From: Zoopage sp. CT-All
Taxonomy: Eukaryota > Zoopagomycota > Zoopagomycetes > Zoopagales > Zoopagaceae
Direction of reading: 5' to 3'
Length of the DNA stretch: 20,737 nucleotides
NCBI GenBank assembly: GCA_004114245.1
Contig: QZWS01000157.1
Coordinates: forward strand, 1 to 20,737
Both the position numbers and the translations under genes were made by a program. Shown in pieces: positions 3,227-20,737 of the stretch. How positions within the stretch are numbered: the first letter of the stretch is position 1; the number at the start of each line of letters is the position of its first letter. The notes beneath the pieces are model-generated. The model saw only the letters and a program-made list of their open reading frames with translations, was not told where the DNA came from and did no database searches.

Positions 3227-6200
3227 ATGGATCTCAACCACGACAGGTCAGACTCGCTTCTTCATTGCTCTCAGCGCCCCAGCATGGTTCACGGTTCATG
3301 GTTCATGGTTTACGGTGCTGACTTGTCATTCTCATTGACGCCATCCCTGTCGGCCACAGTGCAACGGAGCGGTACACCGAGACCCTGAACTCGGCCCTCA
3401 CCTACTTTAGCTCGCTCGCTCAGTCTTCCTCCGGCTGGAAGCGGCTCTCCTCGGCCACAGTTCGATCAACGAGTACGTACTCTCTCGGCGCTGCCTCTTC
3501 TTATTCATATTCCACAGAGGTGCCTGCTATCATCACCATGCGCGCATCCATGACATGTCGTAACCATCGCCCGTGCTTTTTGCTCTTCTTTTGTCTGTTT
3601 TCTCGTCTGTGCCCCACGCGCAGGAAGCGGTACGGTGGGATCGCCTGGCACAGGAGGAAAAGGCGCTGGAGCTGGCTCGTCATCAGCCTCGTCCTCACCC
3701 AACACAAGTCGGCATGGCCCTTACGATGATCCCATGGCCAGCCTGCTCGGAGGAGCCACTCCCTCGTCCGCAGCCTCGGCCGCCATAGAGTCTCTCTTGC
3801 CCGCAATATCCGTCTCCAGAAAGAGCGTGCCCGGAAAGTCAGCAGAGATCGTTCGAGCGAGTATTCTGCTGCCAGGGCTGAACGAGCAGACCGATTTGGA
3901 GGATTGGCGAGCTGTGCTGGAATGCACCGGGGCACGCAAGATTTGTAAGAAGGGCTAAGGGGGTCGAGTGCATTATATTTCTGCTGCGTTTTCATTTCGG
4001 TGTTGCAGACATGTGTGTCCTCGAGGATAAACAACGTGTCACTTCTCTAACCTAACAGCTTAACATTCGCGAGCCGGTACTCTTTCTCACTCCTATATTT
4101 TTCTTTTTTAAAACTCTCCAGGGGATCAGATGGTGGAGAGCTCGACCGTATTGATGACTCTGGACGACTCGACCTGTATCACAAAAACCATTTTCAAGAC
4201 TACCTGGCCCGCTAGGTGAGAACATAGTGCGCGAGTTGAGATAACGATGATGGAACTCCCATCATCATACGCGAAATGTCACATGTATTCAACTGCACTT
4301 TCACGGACACCCCCCATATGCTATGGTGACGACCATGGTTGTCATACAGTTTACTTGACATACTGCTCTCATTCCGCTGGGGGATAAAGTTTTGTGGGGC
4401 GGAGTGTTGATGTGGCACCCACGCACTCGGTCCAGGCTACCAAATACTAACATACACACCCCTTGAAACGCCCTCGTGGTCATGTCATGTCATGTCAGCC
4501 CTAGAGACGCACTCCTCATCGAGACAACGTTGTTGGACCACAACGCCGTGCTTCATATCGCCACGTCCATCAAACCGTCACACGACGACCCGATTTTCAT
4601 GCGGCCATCGCCCCCACATGTGCGCGCATACCTGCCGTTGGTAGCCTGGCACATCCAGCTGGTCCCTGCAGACCTTGACGACACCGTTTCGTTCACATCC
4701 TTTAATTCACTGGCGGCTACTCAGAACCGGCCTGTCATGCCCCGACATTCGATCCGCGTCAGCTTTTATTATCAGATCGACATGCGAGGCTGGGCCGTCA
4801 ATTCTTCCGTCTCGATGCAATCCCATGTTCCGTCTTGCATAGCTAACGTATATCGTCTGCTGCGGCGGCAGGGTGTACCACCCCATGTCAGCCGGCACAG
4901 TCCTCGGATACAGTTGGACCTGAACGAATATGACCCTGCGACAGGAATATACGAACTACGGTACGATGTTATTCCACTAGATTCTGAAGATCTGCTGGTG
5001 GAGCGGAGGACAGTCTCGAGTGCCCTGAAGCAGTTCAGGCTAGGAAACGCCGTGCAGGAGGAGGGGCCAGAATCGTCCAAGGACACTTTGGACTCGTCCA
5101 GCATACCTCAGGAGATTGTGCTTTCGGACGACGACGAGACCGAGGAGGTCGATGCCGACAATCCGAACGATGAGATGCAGCACGGTTATGTGGACGTGGA
5201 GCTGGATGGCGAAAAATGGGGTGTGGGCAGCGACATTGTTGTCCACATCTTCATGAACGACATTGAGGATGAGGAATTTGTACAGGAACATGTCGAGTGC
5301 CTCAAGTATATGGGCCGGGATCGATATATATTGCGGATGAAACACACCGAGATTGGCTCCAACCATGGAGCCATTAACGTCAAGCTGAGGATCGAGCGGA
5401 TTCCTCAACAAACCTCAGGAGGTGCTAATCTTCTTAGTCACCAGCAACTCCGATCCCAGCGTCAGCAGCAAGAGCACGAGCTCCAACAGCAGCAGAGGCA
5501 ACAGGAGGAGGGCCACGAAAATCTTTCGAATCCAGACATGACAGGATTGATCCTATCTGTGAACGGACACGAAAAGAATATCATGCCTTTTCATCGATCC
5601 TCGATTCAAGGGGCGAAGCGCGTCAGCATGTCTCTCCAGGAGCAGCTTGAGCTCAGCCAGCAGATTGTCCAAGAGGTTGACGATAGCTCTGGCCATTGGC
5701 GGTCGGGATCCGATGGACTGGATTCACAAGAGCAGCGGTCAACGGCATCACCACTGTTGCTCATGTCTTCATCAATGCCGACGACGATGCAGAGTCTACA
5801 TAGAAGCAACCAGAGTATTCTCAGCAACGGCACGAGCACAATGGCGCCAGGGAATACGAATCCGAGCAAGGTCAACAGCAGTTATACGTACTTCAACTCT
5901 TTGCTACAGGAACCCGCCAGCTCATGGAAGGCAATCTCAAAGCAACGAGGCGTCCAGATCTCCAAGCTCGAGACTCAGGGTCATACTCCGGGGATTGTCA
6001 AGGGCGAGGGGATCTTTGAGGACTATTCCATTTGGGACCTGAAGGCCGTCCTTGATTGTGCCTCTGCACGCAAGATTTGTAAGTCGAACCCGCCGTCTCT
6101 CACGTATGAATCTTTAAATGAAGCATTGTCGACTTTGCTATTCAAGACACTGACTCCCACCCTCTCTGTCCCTTCGATGCGTATGTGTGCGACTACATGG

Positions 6201-9200
6201 CCTGTGATCATGAAGGGGACAAAATGTTTGACGAATCACACATGCTTCAGCAGGCAACCCCCAGCTCAATTCTCAGCTACGTCAGACTAAAGGGGTTTTG
6301 GCCTACAAGGTATGTACTCCCGGTGTCAATGGCGGCACTTGTTGAGAACATATCTAATATCAAGTGAGTTTCAGGACTAAACGCCGTTCTTCTTTCGATG
6401 TTGATGCTGCAACTAGTCCAAAGGATATGGCGGTTCTGAACACCACTTTTATCACTAAAGACGCCATCCATTACTTTGCGACCTCCGTGGACGACACCAC
6501 CCAGTACCCATCCATACCCCCTCCAGTGTCACCCTTTGTGCGGTCAGAGCTCGTTGTTTCTGGGTGGTATCTGGAAGCGGTCAAACCAAGGAGCGTGCGG
6601 GTTGTTTATATCGCACAGGCCCCACCGACGGGCTGGATGGTGCCCGGAACTGCACTTGGTGCGATGACGACGGAGATGCCACTTTGTGTTGCAGAGATCA
6701 TCAAATACCTGGAAACATATGGCAGCCCACCGACACTGGTCAGCATCCGCAGAGGTCGGGCGCTGGGAGTGGACTACTCGCATGAAAAATCAACCTTCCG
6801 TCTCGAATATGTACAGGACAGCAATCCGTTATTCTCAGGTCATCGAGTATTACTCCAGCAACAGCAACAACAGCAAGTCCAGGCTGGAGATCGCTACAGG
6901 AGAAGTACGGTCGATTACACGGCAGGCGTTGTTGGATCGGGAGACCACCAGTCCCTTCATTCTCCAAAACTGGGACCAACCGACAAACTGCTGGCAGAAA
7001 TTCGGTTGGACGCAAGGACATGGGCGCGTAACGGAGATTCAGAGATCACTATTGACCCGCCACCCTCCAAGGTCACCTGCTCATGCGTTCCTCACGATGG
7101 TACTGGATATCGGCTGCGGATAGAGCATTCGAGCGGACGGGCAGTCCCTGCGGGTGGAAAGGTGCTTCTGATGGCCCGTAAGTCGGCCAAACCAGGATGT
7201 GGAATCGTCGTGAATGGTGTAGCCATCAAGATGCCGTCCATGGAACATTTGGACTCGTGGCTGCCTCGCAAGGCGCCTGAAACCGAAAAGGATAAAGCAC
7301 TGACAATGTCCATGGTAGATGGCGCGTTAGCGGAAAAGGAGGATCAGGATGAGAATGAAGACGGCAGTTTGAGATCAAAGCTGAATGGCGGGAACGTTAA
7401 CACGAGCGGTGGAGAGGACGATCCGGCCCTGGCGCATGTCACACCTACGGACAGTCAAGATAGGCAACGATCCCCGGAAGGGTTGCAGACGCCTCTGCAG
7501 TACGCGCAAGGCGCCATGAATCTCTTGTCCAAGATCAGATCAGAGCCCGAGGACAGCTGGTCTGTGGTCTCTGATAGCAAGGGAGGTATGAGAGTGACTA
7601 AGCGGTTCATGCCGACCGAGATTTCAGACCAGGTCCCGCTTGTACGGGGCGAGAAGGTCATGGAAGGGTTCTCGCTTGAGGAGATTGCGACTGTGATCGG
7701 AACACTTGGCACGCGATCAAAGTGTAAGTGTAGGCGTGCTTTTCACCCAACCAAAAAATGTTTTGTTGAAGAGCATCGACTAACGGCCAGCTGTATTTTG
7801 AAATGAATAGTGGATGACCTCTTTGAGTCTGGAGAGATGCTCGAGTCCTTTGGCGCTGGATGCTCAGTCTTTCATCACGTATTGAAAAGCTACTTTCCTT
7901 TGCCACTACCGTAAGTGTTTGAAGGATGATGACACAGACTTATACGTTGGATTATATAGTCGCTGACGAGGTATCATGCTCTCCTTCAATCGCTCGTTCT
8001 AGTTCTCGAGACTTGTATTTCATTACTGCCACTGCGTCTGTTGAGGCGAGCGCTCGATGCCCACAGATGGTTATTCTCTCGACGTCTGTGCCATTAGAGG
8101 CCATCACCCATAACCCCTCATCAGGCGTTAATGGACCCTCAGCAGCCCCCGCACCTTCTTCAAGTCCTGCGCAAGCACGGCCGAGAGCGCATCTTCACCT
8201 ATCGGCGTGGATACTGGAGAGAATAGATCCCTACAGCACTAGTCATCCCATTCCCTCGACCCGCGTCACCTACATGACGGCACTAGACTTGGGCGGCTCT
8301 GTCCCACAGCGGATTAGCGGCATGATTCAGACCATGTTCCCAAAGATGATAACTCAGGTGGAGACTTATCTTCAGGCGCAGGCAGCGCCTCCAATCGTGC
8401 GCATCCCAGAGCAGATGATCATCGGGCCTTCTGCAGGTATGGGCGCTTAGAAGGGATTTTCGTCTTTCTTGCATTTGAACAGGTCATCAGAGACCCTATC
8501 CTTTAGATCAGACTGACTGAACAACTTTTCATTTCAACGGATCGGATTAGAAGCTGAAACGGAATTCATGGATGAGGGAAACCAGAAACCACTGCCTTCG
8601 ATACTGCCATGGGTAGCACCCGCAAACAGACTGATATCGTCAGAATTCAAGTTGAAGGACTCTTTCTGCGAAGTCATCTTACTCTTTGATCAGTTCCGCC
8701 TCTCGCCATCGCGGCTGGACCTAGTAGCCGAGAGACGGGCGCGTAAACACAAAAAGACTCGACAAAAGTCCGTGGACGACAAGGATCACGCAAGAGATAA
8801 CGCCGAGGCGGAGGAGACGGAGAGCGATACGAAAAGCTCTCAGGAAAAGACCCAGAACCGAACCGTGCTTGAGATGGTCGTGGATCTGAAGCAGTACCCC
8901 ATTGGATATAACATCATGACAAATATCAAGGTGGATCCAGAGTTTTTGTTACAGCAGAAGCAGCAGCGGGATTCTGTCGTGAAGCAGTCGATGATGGTCA
9001 ATTCGGCGTCGAGCATCAAGCGCTCTGGTTCGGCACTCCTCCAGGCAGGATCCTCTGCAAATGCCTCGACCAGCAAATTTATTGGAGGGTTTGATAGTAG
9101 CGTATCAGGATCCGCGATGGACAGCGGCGGCCGACCGTCTCTGGAGGGCGAGGCGGGCCATACCCCAGGCGGATCAAAGTCCTCTACATCCGAGGCAGCC

Positions 9201-11486
9201 AGCAGTGGAACGGGCATTGCCGCAGTATTGGGTGGCTCTGCGAACTTGTCTCGGCCCCTTCCATCCTCGACCTCTCTCATCAGGATTCTGCCCCCACCTC
9301 TCACGGTGCATGTGATCGACATTCCCCCAGCACCTTCGCACTCGTCCTCGCTCTCGGGCGTCTCGAAGCGGAGAAAGCATCTCATCATTGTTACCGTTCC
9401 CGAGGCAGAAAGCAGCCAGGCCTATGCTCAGGCACAACAGCAACAGGCAGCCGCGGTTTCACAACAGTCATTGAAAAGTGCAGCCCCCCTGGTTGTTTCA
9501 GGAACGACTGCCAAGCCAGTCATGACGGCGAGTACAGTGTCGGGATCGACATCTATGAACTTCGCAGCCGATGACCGGAGCGATAGTCCACGCAGTCGTC
9601 CTCAAGGATCATCCTCCTCGTCATCGCAGGACACGGATTTCGCTACAAGCGAGACGGCCAGACCTGCGTTCTCTCCAAGCACGCTTGTGACATCCGAGAC
9701 CGTTACCCCAACGAAATCGACACTGCTGGCTCCAGTAACCAAGCCAGCGATGGCGATGGAAACGCGCATGTTCCAGTTTGGGGTCAAAATTGACCGACTA
9801 GAGCATGCGGCAGCACAGGCCACGAAGGAGACGCTCGGTGGTCTGGCTGAGGAGATGGAATGGCTCGGGCGGGTGTTGGTCGACGGTGTCCCCGTCAAGG
9901 TTATGACGGGCATGTCAAGACAGGACCTAGGTTTCACGGACGGCATGATGGAGGATGATGAAGATGGAGCAGAGCTGCAGCGTGGGCGAAGTCCACAACA
10001 GAATGGCAACGATTATTCCGACAAAGAGACCGAGGCCAATGGAATCATCACAGACAATGGCGACGACGACGGTGGCCGTGCACTGTATTCTGACGATGGA
10101 GAACCCAGTCTGCGCTCCAAGTCTGGATCGCGCAAGAGGAGACATCATCGCCAACAACTCGCCCAGTTGAATAGCCAGCTGGTTTCCGGATCAGGTACAG
10201 AAGGTTTTGAGGAGACGATGTCAAGGACAAACGGACCTGGGTCCGTGTCGGGGCCTCATTCAACGGCAGAACCAGTTTCGAATCGGAGGCCAACGAGCTC
10301 AATGTCAGGCTTCTCGGCGTTTTTGATGAATGTTGGTTTATTGAGTCAACGCGGATCAAGAGCAGACCTGGATGCGGTGGCGGAAAACGCTCATGATGGT
10401 GATGACGATAGTATGTCTGTGAGCAGCTCGGCGCAGGATCAAGGCCGTTGCCGTTCCTCGATGGAGTACGAGGACCTGGACGATGACCGCACTATCCGGG
10501 CCAGCAAGAGTGTAAGCCGAAATAGGACCAGTGATGCCACGAATGCCCAGGGCAGCAGTGGCAAGAAAAAGACGAGAAATGGAGGACGAAAGCACGCCAA
10601 GGCCGACCCTGAGCATGAGCATGATCTTGACCTGGAAAGTCTGCATGGGTCCATTGTCTTCCAGAACGACGCGTATGATGTCCCGTCCGGCACAGACATG
10701 TTGCCCAGTAATATCGATGTCGAACACGACGAGAGGAGGAACGACAGAGACGTGATGGACTGGGCCCACGAGAGCGGGACTGTCCGGCGGAGAAAGGGCA
10801 AAGAGGCGACTGTGCACGATGAACGCTTCGCGGCCAGAGACGATTTAAACGGCCGAGGAGAGAAGAGTCAGATGGACTCGGAGATCATGTTACCGTCCGC
10901 TCAGGCCCAAAATCATCGTCGACAAGGCAGTCGGTCATCGTTTTATCGATCGAGAGCGAGTTCGTCGCAGTCAAAGGTGCGGAGGCCTGGATCAACGAAC
11001 GGCGCCGACCACCCACGATTCAGAGGCAGTCTGCTTTACGCGTACACGTTCAGGAATATTTTCTGGTGTGCTGTGGCCTGCTTTTTGATGGGTCTACTGC
11101 TTAGGATATACGTGATCGGACCTTCGTTCCTGAAGACGGTCTCACGGACGTCGGGAAGACCCAATGGCTCGGGGTATACAACGACATACTATTACTACCG
11201 TGCAGCACCCAGGCGCCCCGCCACGGGAACGTTTACATCACCAGCGTCTAGGACTTTGTCACCACTGACGGGCAAGGGCAGCCGTGGCAATCCGAGTCGT
11301 GAGCGAGATCGTGATGGACGGTACCAGCATCCGGATGGGGATCGGACATCATCCGCAGAGGCAGAGCTGGAAGGGTCTGTGTGGCCGCAAGGGATCCGTG
11401 AGGTGTTCACCGTACGCCGGATCCTCGGCTGGGACTTTGTTTTGTTGGCGTACCCGGCCCAAGAGCAGCAACAACAGCAACAGTAG
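3227..11486 (+). CDS. Membrane-anchored protein with three tandem START-type lipid-binding domains
   Basis: Spliced from ten exons: 3227-3246, 3360-3472, 3624-3944, 4122-4215, 4499-6078, 6216-6309, 6417-7723, 7811-7910, 8003-8436 and 8551-11486. All junctions are GT..AG, the frame stays open, and the sum (6,999 nt) gives 2,332 residues. START domains bind a lipid in a hydrophobic cavity. Here they lie at about residues 10-315, 638-855 and 1100-1345. Each shows an N-terminal helix with GW/SW, a [KR]-[GS]-x4-G strand, an ARKIWD-type motif, a SPRD/SPKD/PSRD turn and a C-terminal helix ending in PP. Each START is followed by a similar beta-rich segment. Residues after about 1800 are Ser/Asp-rich and disordered, then a hydrophobic segment (about 2190-2211) and a ~120-residue basic, Tyr-rich tail ending in polyQ. 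Other polyQ tracts lie near 5461-5510, 6853-6881 and 9430-9460. The least certain parts are exon 1 (20 nt, donor gtcaga) and the acceptor of intron 6. Lipid ligand and membrane are unknown. Confidence 0.82.
3361..5570 (+). other. Module 1: START domain 1 plus beta-rich segment
   Basis: START 1 runs from exon 2 (ALTYFSSLAQSSSGWKRLSS) through exon 5. A low-complexity Gly/Ser/Ala insertion (residues about 45-105) separates its first helix from the first strand. Key motifs are ARKIWDQM at the exon 3/4 junction, TTWPASPRDALL at the exon 4/5 junction, and a final helix ending near GVPPHVS. The following beta-rich segment (residues about 413-540) begins VDVELDGEKWG, contains YILRMKH and VKLRIERI, and ends with LILSVNGHEK after a Gln-rich insertion. 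Confidence 0.75.
5863..7240 (+). other. Module 2: START domain 2 plus beta-rich segment
   Basis: START 2 begins with SYTYFNSLLQEPASSWKAIS. It continues with ARKIWDKM at the exon 5/6 junction and FWPTSPKDMAVL at the exon 6/7 junction, and ends near YGSPPTLV. The beta-rich segment (residues about 932-1005) begins LAEIRLDARTW, contains ITIDPPPSKV and YRLRIEH, and ends with GIVVNGVAIK. It is the most compact of the three copies and so the best template for defining the domain. A polyQ run separates START 2 from it. Confidence 0.75.
7492..9900 (+). other. Module 3: divergent START domain 3 plus interrupted beta-rich segment
   Basis: START 3 begins near LQYAQGAMNLLSKI and has a GTRSKLDDLF stretch at the exon 7/8 junction, where the conserved W of modules 1 and 2 is replaced by L. 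A LPPSRDLYFI turn lies at the exon 8/9 junction, and the helix ends near QAAPPIVRIP. The beta-rich counterpart is split: MVVDLKQYPIGYN (about 1460), RILPPPLTVHVID (about 1596), and GRVLVDGVPVKV (about 1793), separated by long Ser-rich insertions. The assignment of this third beta segment is weaker than the other two. Confidence 0.6.
11055..11120 (+). other. Predicted transmembrane segment of the triple-START protein
   Basis: About 22 hydrophobic residues (NIFWCAVACFLMGLLLRIYV, near residues 2190-2211) are preceded by Arg-rich sequence and followed by a roughly 120-residue tail. No signal peptide is visible at the N terminus, so the START domains are probably cytosolic and the tail would cross to the other side of the membrane. 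The tail is too long for a classical tail-anchored protein. Confidence 0.7.
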
Positions 11487-11665: not shown

Positions 11666-12734
11666 TTAAGCCAGCACATAGGCCAGGATAGCACCCAAGC
11701 CAAAGGTCCAAGCAACAACGTTGTGCACTTGTGCCCCACTTGTAGGAGTTGGAGTTGGAGTATGAGTCGGAGTGGAGTTGGTCGGCGGGGTGACGGCTTT
11801 GTCGTGGTGTGTCTTCTGATGATAGGGATGGGTGCTCGTGAACTGACACTCCTTGTAGGGCTGACGGGTACCACCGAGGCACTCGGCCAGGGGCACGAAC
11901 GTGAAGCCCTTGGCGCGGATGGTATCGATGACCTTGGGGATCAACTTGAGGACGAAGGGAAAGGTCTCGTGGTGGAGCAAGATGATGGAATCGGATTTCG
12001 GGTCAGCGTCCTTGAGGATGTCGTTGAGGCGGCTCATGGACAGTTCCGTGGACTTGTCCTCGGGCAAGAGCACTTTGTCCTGGTGGGACAGGGTGTCGTT
12101 TCGGTAGGCGTTCTGCCAATCGGAGGAATCGACGTTGTAGTGGACGCGTTGCAGGCCCAGGTCGTAGACGGCCTTGGTGCAATTGGCGGTGGAGCATTGG
12201 TCATAGGGCACGCGCACAAAGGACGGACGGACTTTGCCGTAGGTGTAGATGAGGTTCGAGGTTTTGTTGAGGTCTCCGTAGATTGCTTGGTAGGTCATGA
12301 GGTCGTAGTTTTGGTGGGTGTAGCCGTGGAGGGCGACTTGGTGACCGTCGTTCATGATCTTGTCGATGAGATGGATTCTTTCGGGTTTGACACGCTCGAC
12401 TTGTTTGCCCCTAAGGAAAGAACCAAGAAAATAAAAAAAAATTGTCTAGTTATTTTTTCGATCATGGACGCGTCAATAGAACAATAATAATACGTTGTTT
12501 GGACAAGACATACAGCAAAAAGAACGTGGCGCTGACGTTTTTTGTCTTGAGGATGCTTAAAATATCCTCGGTGTAGTAATCTGGACCGTCGTCGATGGTC
12601 AAGGCGACGATCCCGGGCTTTGTGCAGTTCGAGGTCAAGTACGAGGGAGGAGTGGGGGAATGCAGGACCGCCGTTGTCAGGGAGGTAAATGAGAGTGCTG
12701 CTGAACAGCACAAGAGAAGGGTGAGGAGATTCAT
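11666..12734 (-). CDS. Polysaccharide (chitin) deacetylase, NodB family, probably GPI-anchored
   Basis: Two exons on the minus strand, 12734-12514 and 12410-11666, with a 103-nt intron (donor gtatgt, acceptor ttag), give 321 residues. The family removes acetyl groups from chitin to make chitosan in the cell wall, using a metal ion. The five NodB motifs are visible: TIDDGP (46-51; Asp48/Asp49), HGYTH (His102/His106, metal ligands), RVPY (140-143), DSSDW (168-172) and ILLHH (about 217-221). The N terminus is a signal peptide (MNLLTLLLCCSAALSFTSLT). The C terminus is a Thr/Pro-rich linker followed by a hydrophobic tail ending AYVLA with no basic residues, as expected for GPI attachment. Paired Cys (146, 151) and several N-x-S/T sites fit a secreted protein. 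The start is the only Met before the signal peptide. Chitin rather than another polysaccharide is inferred from the fungal context. Confidence 0.92.
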
Positions 12735-13100
12735 GGCAGGGGGGGGGGGAGACTCTTGTCTATGGACAAATGGGGTCGGCTAAAAATGAACTGAAGAGGG
12801 GGAAGGATGGAGTGACTATGCGCAAGGACTTGCGCGCGCGTGTGTGTGTGTGCGTCTGTGTAGGCAGGGAGGAGGGCTCTAGCGTGGGTGAGAATGTCGA
12901 CGTTCGTGCAAAGAGCGAAAGAAATGACGGGAGATAGGAAGGGATTTCGGTAGCCCTTTTGTATGTGGGCGGATTGTGTGTGCCTTGAAACCAAAGGTGG
13001 CTGCAACCGTTCTAGCTACTACGAGTACGACTACGACTACCCAAACACATGCAAGTAGTAGGGGACTAGAGACTAACATTTGCCTTTTTTTATATGTGCT
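12735..13100 (-). promoter_or_regulatory. Upstream region of the deacetylase gene, with poly-C and alternating CG/GT tracts
   Basis: Eleven consecutive C residues (minus strand; 12739-12749) lie four bases before the deacetylase ATG. A 24-nt alternating purine-pyrimidine run (12831-12854, CG then GT) lies further upstream and could adopt Z-DNA. The minus strand is CT-rich between them. No TATA box is evident. Confidence 0.45.
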
Positions 13101-17321: not shown

Positions 17322-19347
17322 ATGACCGTACCGGAACTCACTCCTGAGAATGCTCAGTTCCGAGACATGGGCGATGGCACTCGCCATCTGCGTAAGCCCG
17401 GCGAGAACGTCTTTAGTTGGCAGGCTCGTCGTCTCACCAATACACGCACGTTCGCCTCGCTCGACCAAGAGTCTGAGAACTCTCAGATGAAGAGGGTCCT
17501 TACCGTTAAGGATCTCAGTGCCATGGGTGTCGGTGCTATTATCGGCACGGGTATCTTTGTTCTCACTGGTAAGTTTTGTTTGCTTCTGCTCTTTGACTAG
17601 CCTTGTGCAAGGAAAAGGCAACGCTAGACGCCTTCATCCAGCATGATGCAGAACACACAAAGAAAATTAGGCTATTATGGATCCCTTCGCGTTACTGACG
17701 TCCAAGCCTTTCTCTTTGTTTGTGTACACTCTCTTTCATACGTGCGCGCATATATTTTTTTTTACCCTCGCACGAACCAAATAATAGGTGTGGTTGCTAA
17801 CGAGAAGGCAGGACCCGCCGTCTGTGTCTCGTTTATTATTGCTGCTATTGTCGCTGGTCTTGCTGCTATGTCCTATGCCGAGATGGCCTGTCTGGTCCCT
17901 ATTGCCGGAAGTGCTTATACTTACACCTATGCTACCTGCGGAGAACTCATGGCCTGGATCATCGGTTGGGATCTGTAAGTATCGCCCCCTCCCCTTTTTT
18001 TGTGCAGTATTTGCTAATGTAACAATCATGCATACATCGGCCTTTGCTTGCAGTTTGCTGATACTATTTCATATTTTCTCGGTGGTCTTGTTGTGGTTTG
18101 AATGTATTAGTATTCTCGAGTACTTGGTCGGAGCAGCTACAGTCTCGGTTGGGTTCTCGCACTATCTCAGCGCGTTCTTTAAAGATGCATTTGGTTGGGA
18201 GCCCGATTCAAAGCTGATGACCGCGCCCTTCCAGTACAAGAACGACTCTTTCAGTTTGACCGGGGACTGGTTCTCGCTGCCATCATTCCTCATTGTCATC
18301 TTCCTCACCATCCTCCTCTGCAGAGGTGTCAAGTCCTCAGCCCGTGTCAACAATGTCCTCGTCGTCGTCAAGCTGATTGTCATCATTGTCTTCATCTTTG
18401 GTGCCTGCAAGTGGGTCAACATGGACAACTTCAAGCCATTCATTCCCCCAAACACGGGCAAGTTCGGCGAGTTTGGAGGCTCGGGTGTTCTACGTGGAGC
18501 CACTGTCGTATTCTTTGCCTTTATTGGTTTCGATGCCATCAGTACTGCCGCTCAGGAGGCACGCAACCCCCAACGCGATCTTCCCATCGGTATCGGCATC
18601 TCGCTCATCGGCTGCACAATTCTCTACATCGCCACCAGTGTCGTCATGCTCGGTGTGGTCAACTACACAGAAATTGCCGGTAAGGGCAAAGGAGCGCCCT
18701 TCCAGATCACAGCTGCTGCCACTGGACAAAAGTGGCTCTCCATCTTTTGCGAAGTGGGTATCTTGGCTGGATTGGTCTCTGTCATGTTGGTCCTCTTGAT
18801 CGGACAGCCCCGTATTTTCTTCTCCATGGCCGTTGATGGTCTCTTCCCCCAGATTGCGGCCAAGCTTCACCCAAAGTACAAGACCCCAGTGATGACAACA
18901 GCCATTGCGGGAGTGATTTGTGCTGCTGCTGGAGGCATGTTCCCCGTCGACCTGCTGGCCGATCTGACCTCGGTCGGAACCCTCTTTGCCTTCTTCTTGG
19001 TCCACTGCTCAGTCCTTATCCTCCGCTGGCGCGAGCCCAACCGCCCTCGTCGCTTCAAGGTTCCTCTCGGACCCGTCTTCCCCATCCTGGGCGCTCTCAG
19101 CTGCGTTGGTTTGATTGCTGTTGACTCTGTTTCGGCCATCATCCGTCTGGTGATCTGGCTGGCCATCGGCTTGGTCTTCTATGCCGCCTACGGTGCCAGA
19201 TACTCCCGCCTCAATAACCCTGAGCGATACGCCCACGAGACTGCGCCCATGGAGGTTGTGGGTGAGCGCCAGCACACTCATCTCGAGGTCAAGGAGAACG
19301 AATCACCCTTGTACTCTTCCACTACACCCGCCGAGACCAAGGTCTAA
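17322..19347 (+). CDS. Amino acid permease, cationic amino acid transporter (CAT) type of the APC superfamily
   Basis: Three exons, 17322-17568, 17788-17974 and 18111-19347, give 556 residues. The introns are 219 nt (donor gtaagt) and 136 nt (donor gtaagt, acceptor ttag). APC permeases import amino acids across the plasma or vacuolar membrane. A hydrophilic N terminus of about 60 residues precedes about 12 membrane helices. Helix 1 carries GAIIGTGIF (71-79), the substrate-binding glycine motif. The exon 2/3 junction reads GWDLILEYLVGAATVSVG, typical of CAT proteins, and FIGFDAISTAAQEARNPQRD follows in the middle of the protein. The C-terminal tail is short and hydrophilic. Substrate preference cannot be read from sequence; cationic amino acids are only the family's best-known cargo. 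An upstream acceptor at 18053 is also in frame and would insert 19 hydrophobic residues after GWDL. I chose 18110 because it restores the family consensus. Confidence 0.9.
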
Positions 19348-19456: not shown

Positions 19457-20684
19457 CTATTCTAATGCCTTGTCCGCGTCCATACGCGATACGATTGATG
19501 TCTTTATCGCGCCAAGGTGTTGATCTTGATGTAGTCTGCATTCGAGAACGAACTGGCAGAATTGCCCCTTCAGATGTGCATTCAGATCCTTCGAACTTGG
19601 AAGTGCCTTCATCATAGACTGTGTTTCTGTCAAGAATTGGGCATCTAATCGATTAAAAAAAAAAGGTACAAAGATGTGAAAAAAATGTTTTCTTCGACAG
19701 AAACCGAGAGAGAAAAATATGGCAGATGTATCCCCTTTACTTGATAGTGTGGTCAGGTCCTCCAGTCGCTTCAACAATTCCTTTAACGAGCCCGAGGCTT
19801 TTGGTTTGTTGTCGTTACTGGGCCAGAATATCGGCCCGATCTGATTGACAGCGATCGCGGACGAGAGGTAGATTTGACGGAGGATCACAATCTGCTCAAA
19901 TGTCACTCGATTGGGCATGAACCAGGCCAGGATGCGGTTCGGACTCGTGTTCTGTACGAGGGAAAGTTCCAAGAGTCCAATGGCTGCCAAAAGTGTGTAC
20001 CGCCAGTATCGGCCGTAAGTGGCCTTGCCCAGCCACCCCATGAACATCAACACCACGGCGGTGGTCCCGTACATGACAAAGATCTCGTTGATTCCGTTCC
20101 GAAGGTATTCCTTGGTGGTCTTGCAGGTTGTGCATTTGAAAGATGTAGGACCGAACCAGTCGTAGGCCTGGCGAAGGGTGGGATCGGACAGGACCTCATG
20201 GGCTCCTCTTATCTTGACAAAGACATCTTTCCATTGATCACATAGAGTAGTAAAGCAACAAAGCAACAAAGCTGTTTAGCCTTGATCCCAGTCCGCGCTG
20301 TGAGAGATTGAACCCTTGTGGGAGATCTTGTTTACCTGCACCGGCGTCTCCAACCTTGTCGGGATGATACTGCAAAGACGCTTTTCTGAAGTTTGTCTTG
20401 AGCTGCTTCTGACTGAAAGAGTGAAACCGAAGATCAAGGACGTCGTAATGGCTGGGTTCCAGTGCACGATCGACGCTTCGGACCAGGTAGAGGAGATAGA
20501 AGAGGATGACTCCACAAAGGATAAAGTTGCGGTCCCGGGTGTGCTTGGCTGATCCACTGGGTGGGATGGCCGCTGACTTGGTCGAGTATCGAAATGAGTA
20601 CCAGAGAGTGTGGAGGATGTTGGTCACAAAGGTGGGTACGACCATCCAGCCGACGATCCCTGCGAATGTCTCTTGATAGACCAT
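19457..20684 (-). CDS. Membrane-bound J-domain (DnaJ/Hsp40) co-chaperone
   Basis: Minus strand, three exons: 20684-20336, then about 20238 (or 20271)-19741, then 19644-19457. J domains stimulate Hsp70 ATPase through an HPD motif, here YHPDK with HPD at 107-109. Two hydrophobic segments (about 5-28 and 54-70) precede the J domain (about 78-145). RQAYDWFGP and a CTTC pair follow, then two more hydrophobic segments. The layout resembles fungal ER-type membrane J-proteins (Erj5-like), with low certainty on organelle. Intron 1 starts with gtaaac, but its 3' end is problematic. The only AG gives an 11-residue hydrophobic insert (ALLLCCFTTLC) inside the J domain. A clean J domain (GAGDQWKDVF) would need a TG acceptor before 20238. 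Both keep the frame (355 or 344 residues). Intron 2 (19740-19645, 96 nt) is itself open and in frame. The ATG abuts a homopolymer junction at the window end, so the true start or promoter may be missing. Confidence 0.78.
19612..19664. repeat. Internal copy of a 53-bp inverted repeat
   Basis: This segment covers the 3' end of intron 2 and the start of exon 3 of the J-domain gene (minus strand). Its exact reverse complement forms the last 53 bases of the window, so this copy is in its natural coding context and is probably the original. Confidence 0.95.
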
Positions 20685-20737
20685 TTTTTTTTTTAATCGA
20701 TTAGATGCCCAATTCTTGACAGAAACACAGTCTATGA
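20685..20737. repeat. Terminal 53-bp inverted copy at the window end
   Basis: These bases equal the reverse complement of 19612-19664 without a mismatch. They begin in a T-run directly against the start codon of the J-domain gene and continue to the last base. The junction lies in a homopolymer (T11 here, A10 in the internal copy), which suggests a false join rather than real upstream sequence. Confidence 0.95.

Follow-up and report, generated by a model that had tools for sequence, protein, structure and literature searches.

The stretch of 20,737 nucleotides from contig QZWS01000157.1 (positions 1-20,737) of Zoopage sp. CT-All (assembly GCA_004114245.1), referred to below as the window, carries on its forward strand at 3227-11486 a gene whose protein of 2,332 residues contains three START domains and behind them, close to the C terminus, a single hydrophobic helix, an architecture in which we place very high confidence. 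As for its function, we favour, with some reservation, a lipid-transfer protein anchored in a membrane and equipped with three canonical START pockets, of which two or more would have a small beta-sandwich, probably of the GH5_C type, behind them. A first-pass annotation of the window had already proposed three START domains and a membrane anchor on one chain; the present analysis adds the beta domains after START 1 and START 2, a motif conserved at the C terminus and evidence that the layout is old.

Joining the ten exons gave 6,999 bases including the TAG stop, which translate without an internal stop into the same 2,332 codons counted in the first-pass annotation. All nine introns show GT..AG borders. 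Exons 2-10 are 81-100% identical to an annotated Mortierella alpina protein (P0001), and junctions 2-9 are gapless in the alignment with it, junctions 3-7 being identical over 11 residues and junctions 2, 8 and 9 displaying substitutions. Exon 1 has no match to P0001, which possesses another N terminus, and agrees with P0004 (MDLNHDSATERY). Exon 5 is one open frame leading from START 1 into START 2, as is exon 7 from START 2 into START 3; since each bridges two START domains, separate genes are unlikely on the DNA evidence alone. A start of exon 6 at 6147, giving 2,355 residues, also keeps the frame open, but inserts 23 residues absent from all 12 homologues displayed, and 6216 was taken. The longer version, with these 23 extra residues in START 2, was used for the Pfam scan of the whole protein, the first homologue search and the conservation views.

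In this Pfam scan START (PF01852) matched three stretches (E 4.4e-15, 56.1 bits, over the cut-off of 22 bits). Scored alone, START 2 and START 3 passed with 39.3 and 30.1 bits, in agreement with what had been proposed for the second and third modules, and START 1 remained under the cut-off with 17.6 bits. A hidden Markov model (HMM) derived solely from three chytrid-like START domains of the assembly containing the window recovered START 1, 2 and 3 with 48, 91 and 69 bits; a control set of 265 shuffled proteins gave no hit at E <= 0.01. Profile comparison matched START 2 with both START 1 (E 2.8e-21) and START 3 (E 1.4e-22), while START 3 matched START 1 with 27% probability using Mortierellaceae alone and with 98% using broader alignments. 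The helix-grip fold that defines START (PF01852) was found, and a fold search for START 2, carried out in a close homologue, ranked STARD5, STARD4, StAR and STARD3 above CERT; the VIA-align rows of the 1,171-residue model covered START 2 and the adjoining stretches. The three modules also have intron positions in common. Three START domains on one polypeptide are thus upheld by sequence, inter-module profiles, the START 2 fold search, shared introns and a layout kept across fungal phyla.

Three protein searches, each scoring 7,973-7,993 candidates sharing most words, returned 43, 3 and 5 proteins, with a single protein retrieved twice, and so yielded 50 relatives (P0001-P0050), all with fungal names or unnamed. 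At least three START regions were counted in 43 of them, some split or truncated in gene models and the third of P0047 being partial, with an HMM trained in rounds that took in these same proteins; P0033, P0043, P0044, P0046, P0048, P0049 and P0050 had fewer. The holders comprise Mortierella and related genera (P0001-P0032, P0047), Endogone (P0034), Coemansia (P0042), Fimicolochytrium (P0045) and, within the Basidiomycota, smut fungi of the Ustilaginomycotina (P0035-P0038) as well as Rhodotorula and Rhodosporidiobolus (P0039-P0041). NCBI taxonomy assigned seven of the names to Mortierellomycota, Mucoromycota, Basidiomycota, Kickxellomycota and Chytridiomycota. Groups absent from this list, such as Ascomycota, may nevertheless have the protein too. 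An orthologue search, which the first-pass annotation had suggested across Mucoromycota, revealed the layout in several fungal phyla. Two models join the START protein to other domains, P0014 to PF05922 and PF00082 and P0018, named Suppressor of Sensor Kinase, to kinase domains; both are probably annotation fusions.

An unrooted tree included 41 START domains from 16 proteins; eight rows belonging to incomplete or two-domain proteins were left out of the count. START 1, 2 and 3 formed one group each, with members from Mortierellaceae, Endogone and Basidiomycota alike (4 label changes versus a shuffled mean of 16.1), and because these groups span the three lineages, the triplication predates the Mortierella/Endogone/Basidiomycota split. 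In Coemansia, where all branches are long, START 1 fell within group 1, START 3 beside group 3 and START 2 outside group 2. The chytrid copies mostly clustered among themselves, several deep forks of the tree being weak, and START 2 and START 3 of Fimicolochytrium grouped together, with START 1 elsewhere, which suggests a separate duplication history of the START-beta units in chytrids (Fimicolochytrium and Geranomyces in the tree). The multi-START proteins of chytrids (P0045 from Fimicolochytrium, P0044, and C18 from G000, the assembly containing the window) likewise have two or three START and then beta domains, and P0044 and P0045 share the C-terminal hydrophobic helix; they differ in being shorter and in that their START copies mostly do not group by position.

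START 1 and START 2, and perhaps START 3, are probably followed by a beta-sandwich resembling the C-terminal domain of sterylglucosidases (GH5_C). Beta domain 1 matched beta domain 2 in broader alignments (E 1.8e-7, 93.8% probability) and also the chytrid beta domains (E 3.4e-7); with Mortierellaceae-only profiles, the probability was 0.2% for beta 1 against beta 2 and 8.9% for beta 1 against beta 3. The possible beta domain 3 matched the chytrid beta domains weakly (17.7% probability, E 0.0014) and the beta 1 and beta 2 profiles with only 1.4% and 0.6% probability. A beta-domain HMM whose training included beta 2 of the window recovered beta 2 in the protein, and neither beta 1 nor beta 3. 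The GH5_C assignment is based on re-aligned Foldseek candidates and on a Pfam match in the chytrid relative P0045, in which PF18564 (Glyco_hydro_5_C) scored 25 bits, over the cut-off of 22. Matches under this cut-off were seen in 3 of 12 beta domains (13.0, 14.3 and 19.3 bits), and the window's own beta domains gave no hit to PF18564; that G000 gave none is uninformative, as 14 controls gave none either. Foldseek with a beta domain returned no match at E <= 0.001, and PDB profile searches with the beta-domain alignments returned nothing relevant. Compared with Cryptococcus sterylglucosidase Sgl1 and Rhodococcus endoglycoceramidase I, which have a C-terminal Glyco_hydro_5_C sandwich, the protein described here lacks a TIM-barrel hydrolase domain and has the sandwich placed behind START domains.

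The membrane segment annotated near the C terminus proved to be a single hydrophobic helix conserved in homologues (residues 2191-2209, mean hydropathy 2.19), its end lying 123 residues before the C terminus. Of the 43 three-START relatives, 40 show a segment above the hydropathy threshold of 1.8 C-terminal of the last START, and 33 have a GWDxVLxA-like pattern within the last 90 residues. The stretch between START 3 and the helix shows low conservation with some conserved islands, and V, I, L, F, M, W and Y account for 20% of residues 1500-2185 versus 27-36% in five domain stretches used for comparison. In the Endogone protein P0034, the last 160 residues contain the transmembrane segment and GWD tail twice in tandem, which could reflect a genuine duplication or a fault in the assembly or the gene model.

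According to the mechanism that we propose, the C-terminal helix would anchor the protein in a first membrane, most likely that of the endoplasmic reticulum (ER), with the START units on the cytosolic side, and some 680 residues of presumably flexible chain would let these units reach a second membrane. Canonical START domains bind a single lipid in a closed pocket; at a contact site, the pockets would take a lipid out of one bilayer and insert it into another. The beta-sandwiches would probably serve to brace the START unit or to place it against the membrane or a lipid headgroup. As the pocket lineages have been separate since before the Mortierella/Endogone/Basidiomycota split, the three pockets probably differ in ligand or role.

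Lipid transfer at contacts is suggested by yeast Ysp2/Lam2 and Lam4, which share the plan of a tether combined with START-type domains. In the excerpts consulted (PMC4463742, PMC12705765), they are described as sterol-binding and ER-anchored at plasma-membrane contacts, with two START-superfamily domains per chain, a mostly cytoplasmic body and an ER membrane anchor. Their domains are, however, StART-like (VASt) and accompanied by GRAM, whereas the window's protein has canonical START (PF01852) in three copies, beta domains and no GRAM hit. STARD3/MLN64 carries one START behind an N-terminal MENTAL domain; here, three START precede a C-terminal helix that is the only hydrophobic stretch at the threshold used. 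CERT, a soluble protein with a PH domain, an FFAT motif and one START, was the best sequence-profile match among solved chains for all three modules, for START 1 over 44 positions only.

Several observations weigh against a lipid-transfer protein at contact sites. The Pfam scan of the 2,355-residue version (up to E 10) listed START only, with no PH domain as in CERT and no GRAM, VASt or MENTAL, and a home-made score applied to 12 proteins found no conserved FFAT motif, the best-scoring FFAT-like sites of the window's protein lying inside START 1 and START 3; hence, no known targeting signal emerges. START 1 is divergent, has a long insertion and may bind no lipid. At the positions that we take to be the ceramide contacts of CERT, E446 is replaced by D in all three modules, Q467 by T, V and H in START 1, 2 and 3, and N504 by A in START 1 (by eye, outside the alignment), Y or A in START 2 (two alignments differ) and S in START 3, so that two of the three contacts appear to be lost. 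Moreover, START domains may also serve as sensors or scaffolds.

This last role is the basis of the strongest alternative, a lipid-gated scaffold or sensor in which START would report the membrane state and the low-complexity stretch would recruit signalling or trafficking partners, with little lipid being moved. The conserved islands of that long stretch, the divergence of START 1 and the failure of the Pfam scan and of the FFAT scan of 12 proteins to find known contact-site targeting motifs would all suit it. We nevertheless give it a minor share of our confidence: the order of the three START units has been kept since before the Mortierella/Endogone/Basidiomycota split, the fold of START 2 is nearest to STARD5, STARD4, StAR and STARD3, which are lipid carriers, and known transfer proteins share the layout of anchor and START-type units. 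Under the preferred reading as a lipid-transfer protein, a more specific and rather speculative version would be a three-stage carrier of START and GH5_C-like units, inherited from an early fungal ancestor, with each stage suited to a different lipid (for example, ergosterol, its glucoside or a sphingolipid) and all coupled on one membrane-tethered chain. A relay, in which the three pockets would hand one lipid, or exchange different lipids, along the chain, appears improbable; START 1, 2 and 3 do keep their order and separate identity across phyla, but the linkers between units are of low confidence in the P0047 model and the grouping of START 2 with START 3 in Fimicolochytrium fits simple copy number equally well. 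Finally, although the relatives' database models are mostly predictions, some truncated or fused, we see hardly any chance that the single protein is an exon-joining artefact of two or more transcripts, given that exons 5 and 7 cross between START domains without a stop, the exon junctions agree with homologues and a single protein bears three START regions in 43 of the 50 relatives.

For the ligand, a sterol or a sphingolipid is our guess. Ceramides and ceramide-1-phosphates were reported to make up >80% of the sphingolipid pool of M. alpina (PMC13161914), and with a pool mostly of this type the ligand might be a ceramide, though we do not favour this. A cerulenin-resistant R. toruloides mutant (RCM9) is described, in the portion of the report consulted (PMC5822628), as affected in a STARD3-like gene; since STARD3 was not among the matches listed for P0039 against PDB sequences, we regard this mutant only as a lead. 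By word search, the term 'StAR-related' is absent from the main text of PMC5922974, a fitness study of R. toruloides.

Table 1. Features of the three-START gene, in window coordinates
Feature	Position	Strand	Basis
Whole gene, ten exons, 2,332-residue protein	3227..11486	+	Spliced translation; junctions match homologues
Exon 1, ATG 3227-3229	3227..3246	+	N terminus as in P0004, unlike P0001
Exon 2, probable first START 1 helix and GW motif	3360..3472	+	Helix 5-28 in P0047 model
Exon 3, START 1 as far as ARKI, with low-complexity insertion	3624..3944	+	Translation, P0047 model
Exon 4 (94 bp), START 1, phase-1 intron ARKI/W to phase-2 intron WPA/S	4122..4215	+	Intron comparison
Exon 5, remaining START 1, beta domain 1, beginning of START 2	4499..6078	+	Single open frame
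Exon 6 (94 bp), START 2, intron positions and phases as for exon 4	6216..6309	+	Homologues, intron comparison
Exon 7, remaining START 2, beta domain 2, beginning of START 3	6417..7723	+	Single open frame
Exon 8 (100 bp), START 3, matching intron positions/phases, two residues longer than exons 4 and 6	7811..7910	+	Intron comparison
Exon 9, remaining START 3	8003..8436	+	Translation
Exon 10, possible beta domain 3, presumably flexible stretch, transmembrane helix, tail, stop	8551..11486	+	Translation
START 1, residues 8-314 (HMM 88-314; 8-87 added via P0047-model helix and by eye; introns 2-4)	3361..4892	+	HMMs, profile
Beta domain 1, residues about 315-543, SVNG at end	4893..5579	+	Profile matches; missed by beta-domain HMM
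START 2, residues 644-848, introns 5 and 6 inside	5880..6738	+	
Beta domain 2, residues 849-1020, GH5_C-like beta-sandwich, VNG motif	6739..7254	+	
START 3, residues 1107-1343, introns 7 and 8 inside	7513..8402	+	30.1 bits; CERT E 1.1e-8; START 2 E 1.4e-22
Possible beta domain 3 (VDLKQYPIGYNI), residues about 1384-1485	8637..8942	+	Weak profile match, chytrid beta domains
Low-hydrophobicity, poorly conserved, presumably flexible stretch, residues 1500-2185	8985..11042	+	Composition, conservation
Transmembrane helix, residues 2187-2211	11046..11120	+	Mean hydropathy 2.19 over 2191-2209; conserved
Conserved C-terminal motif GIREVFTVRRILGWDFVLLAYP, residues 2302-2326	11391..11465	+	Conserved among homologues

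Upstream of the START gene, the window encodes an F-box-like protein with leucine-rich repeats (412-2613, +). Convergent with the START gene, two neighbouring frames with polysaccharide deacetylase matches (11666-12779, -) probably represent two exons of one gene, and they are followed by an amino-acid permease (17788-19347, +) and a DnaJ-domain frame running off the window end (20238-20735, -). Elsewhere in G000 we identified START frames of another type, C18 (L004:4171-6699, -) and C204 (L005:2594-4852, +), the best relatives of C18 being an unnamed 962-residue protein (43%) and a Fimicolochytrium protein (26%). The GC (guanine plus cytosine) fraction is 0.55 and 0.59 in the C18 and C204 stretches versus 0.52 in the window, and G000 is possibly a mixed assembly.

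In the databases, the relatives go under 'START domain-containing protein', 'hypothetical protein' or 'uncharacterized protein'; the exceptions are unnamed entries, one entry labelled 'unnamed protein product' and a single fused model. In the titles and abstract openings of the open-licence papers listed, no description of a three-START protein or of START combined with GH5_C was found; START lipid-transfer proteins are known as a kind, and the three-START arrangement appears undescribed. To our knowledge, budding yeast has no canonical START protein, and what we see here looks like an old lipid shuttle of a soil fungus and several fungal phyla that budding yeast would not have revealed. If the three-stage carrier is true, it would constitute a route of lipid traffic lacking in Saccharomyces and unstudied for that reason. 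Three START domains and a membrane segment are conserved in Mortierella, red yeasts and smut fungi. Some of these fungi are genetically tractable, which opens the lipid and the membrane contact of the protein to testing. Mutagenesis by transfer DNA (T-DNA) is described for R. toruloides in PMC5822628. The GH5_C reading, if true, would hint at the role of the accessory domain in sterylglucosidases and endoglycoceramidases, and the age of the three START lineages makes the protein well suited to the question of why a single chain should need three pockets.
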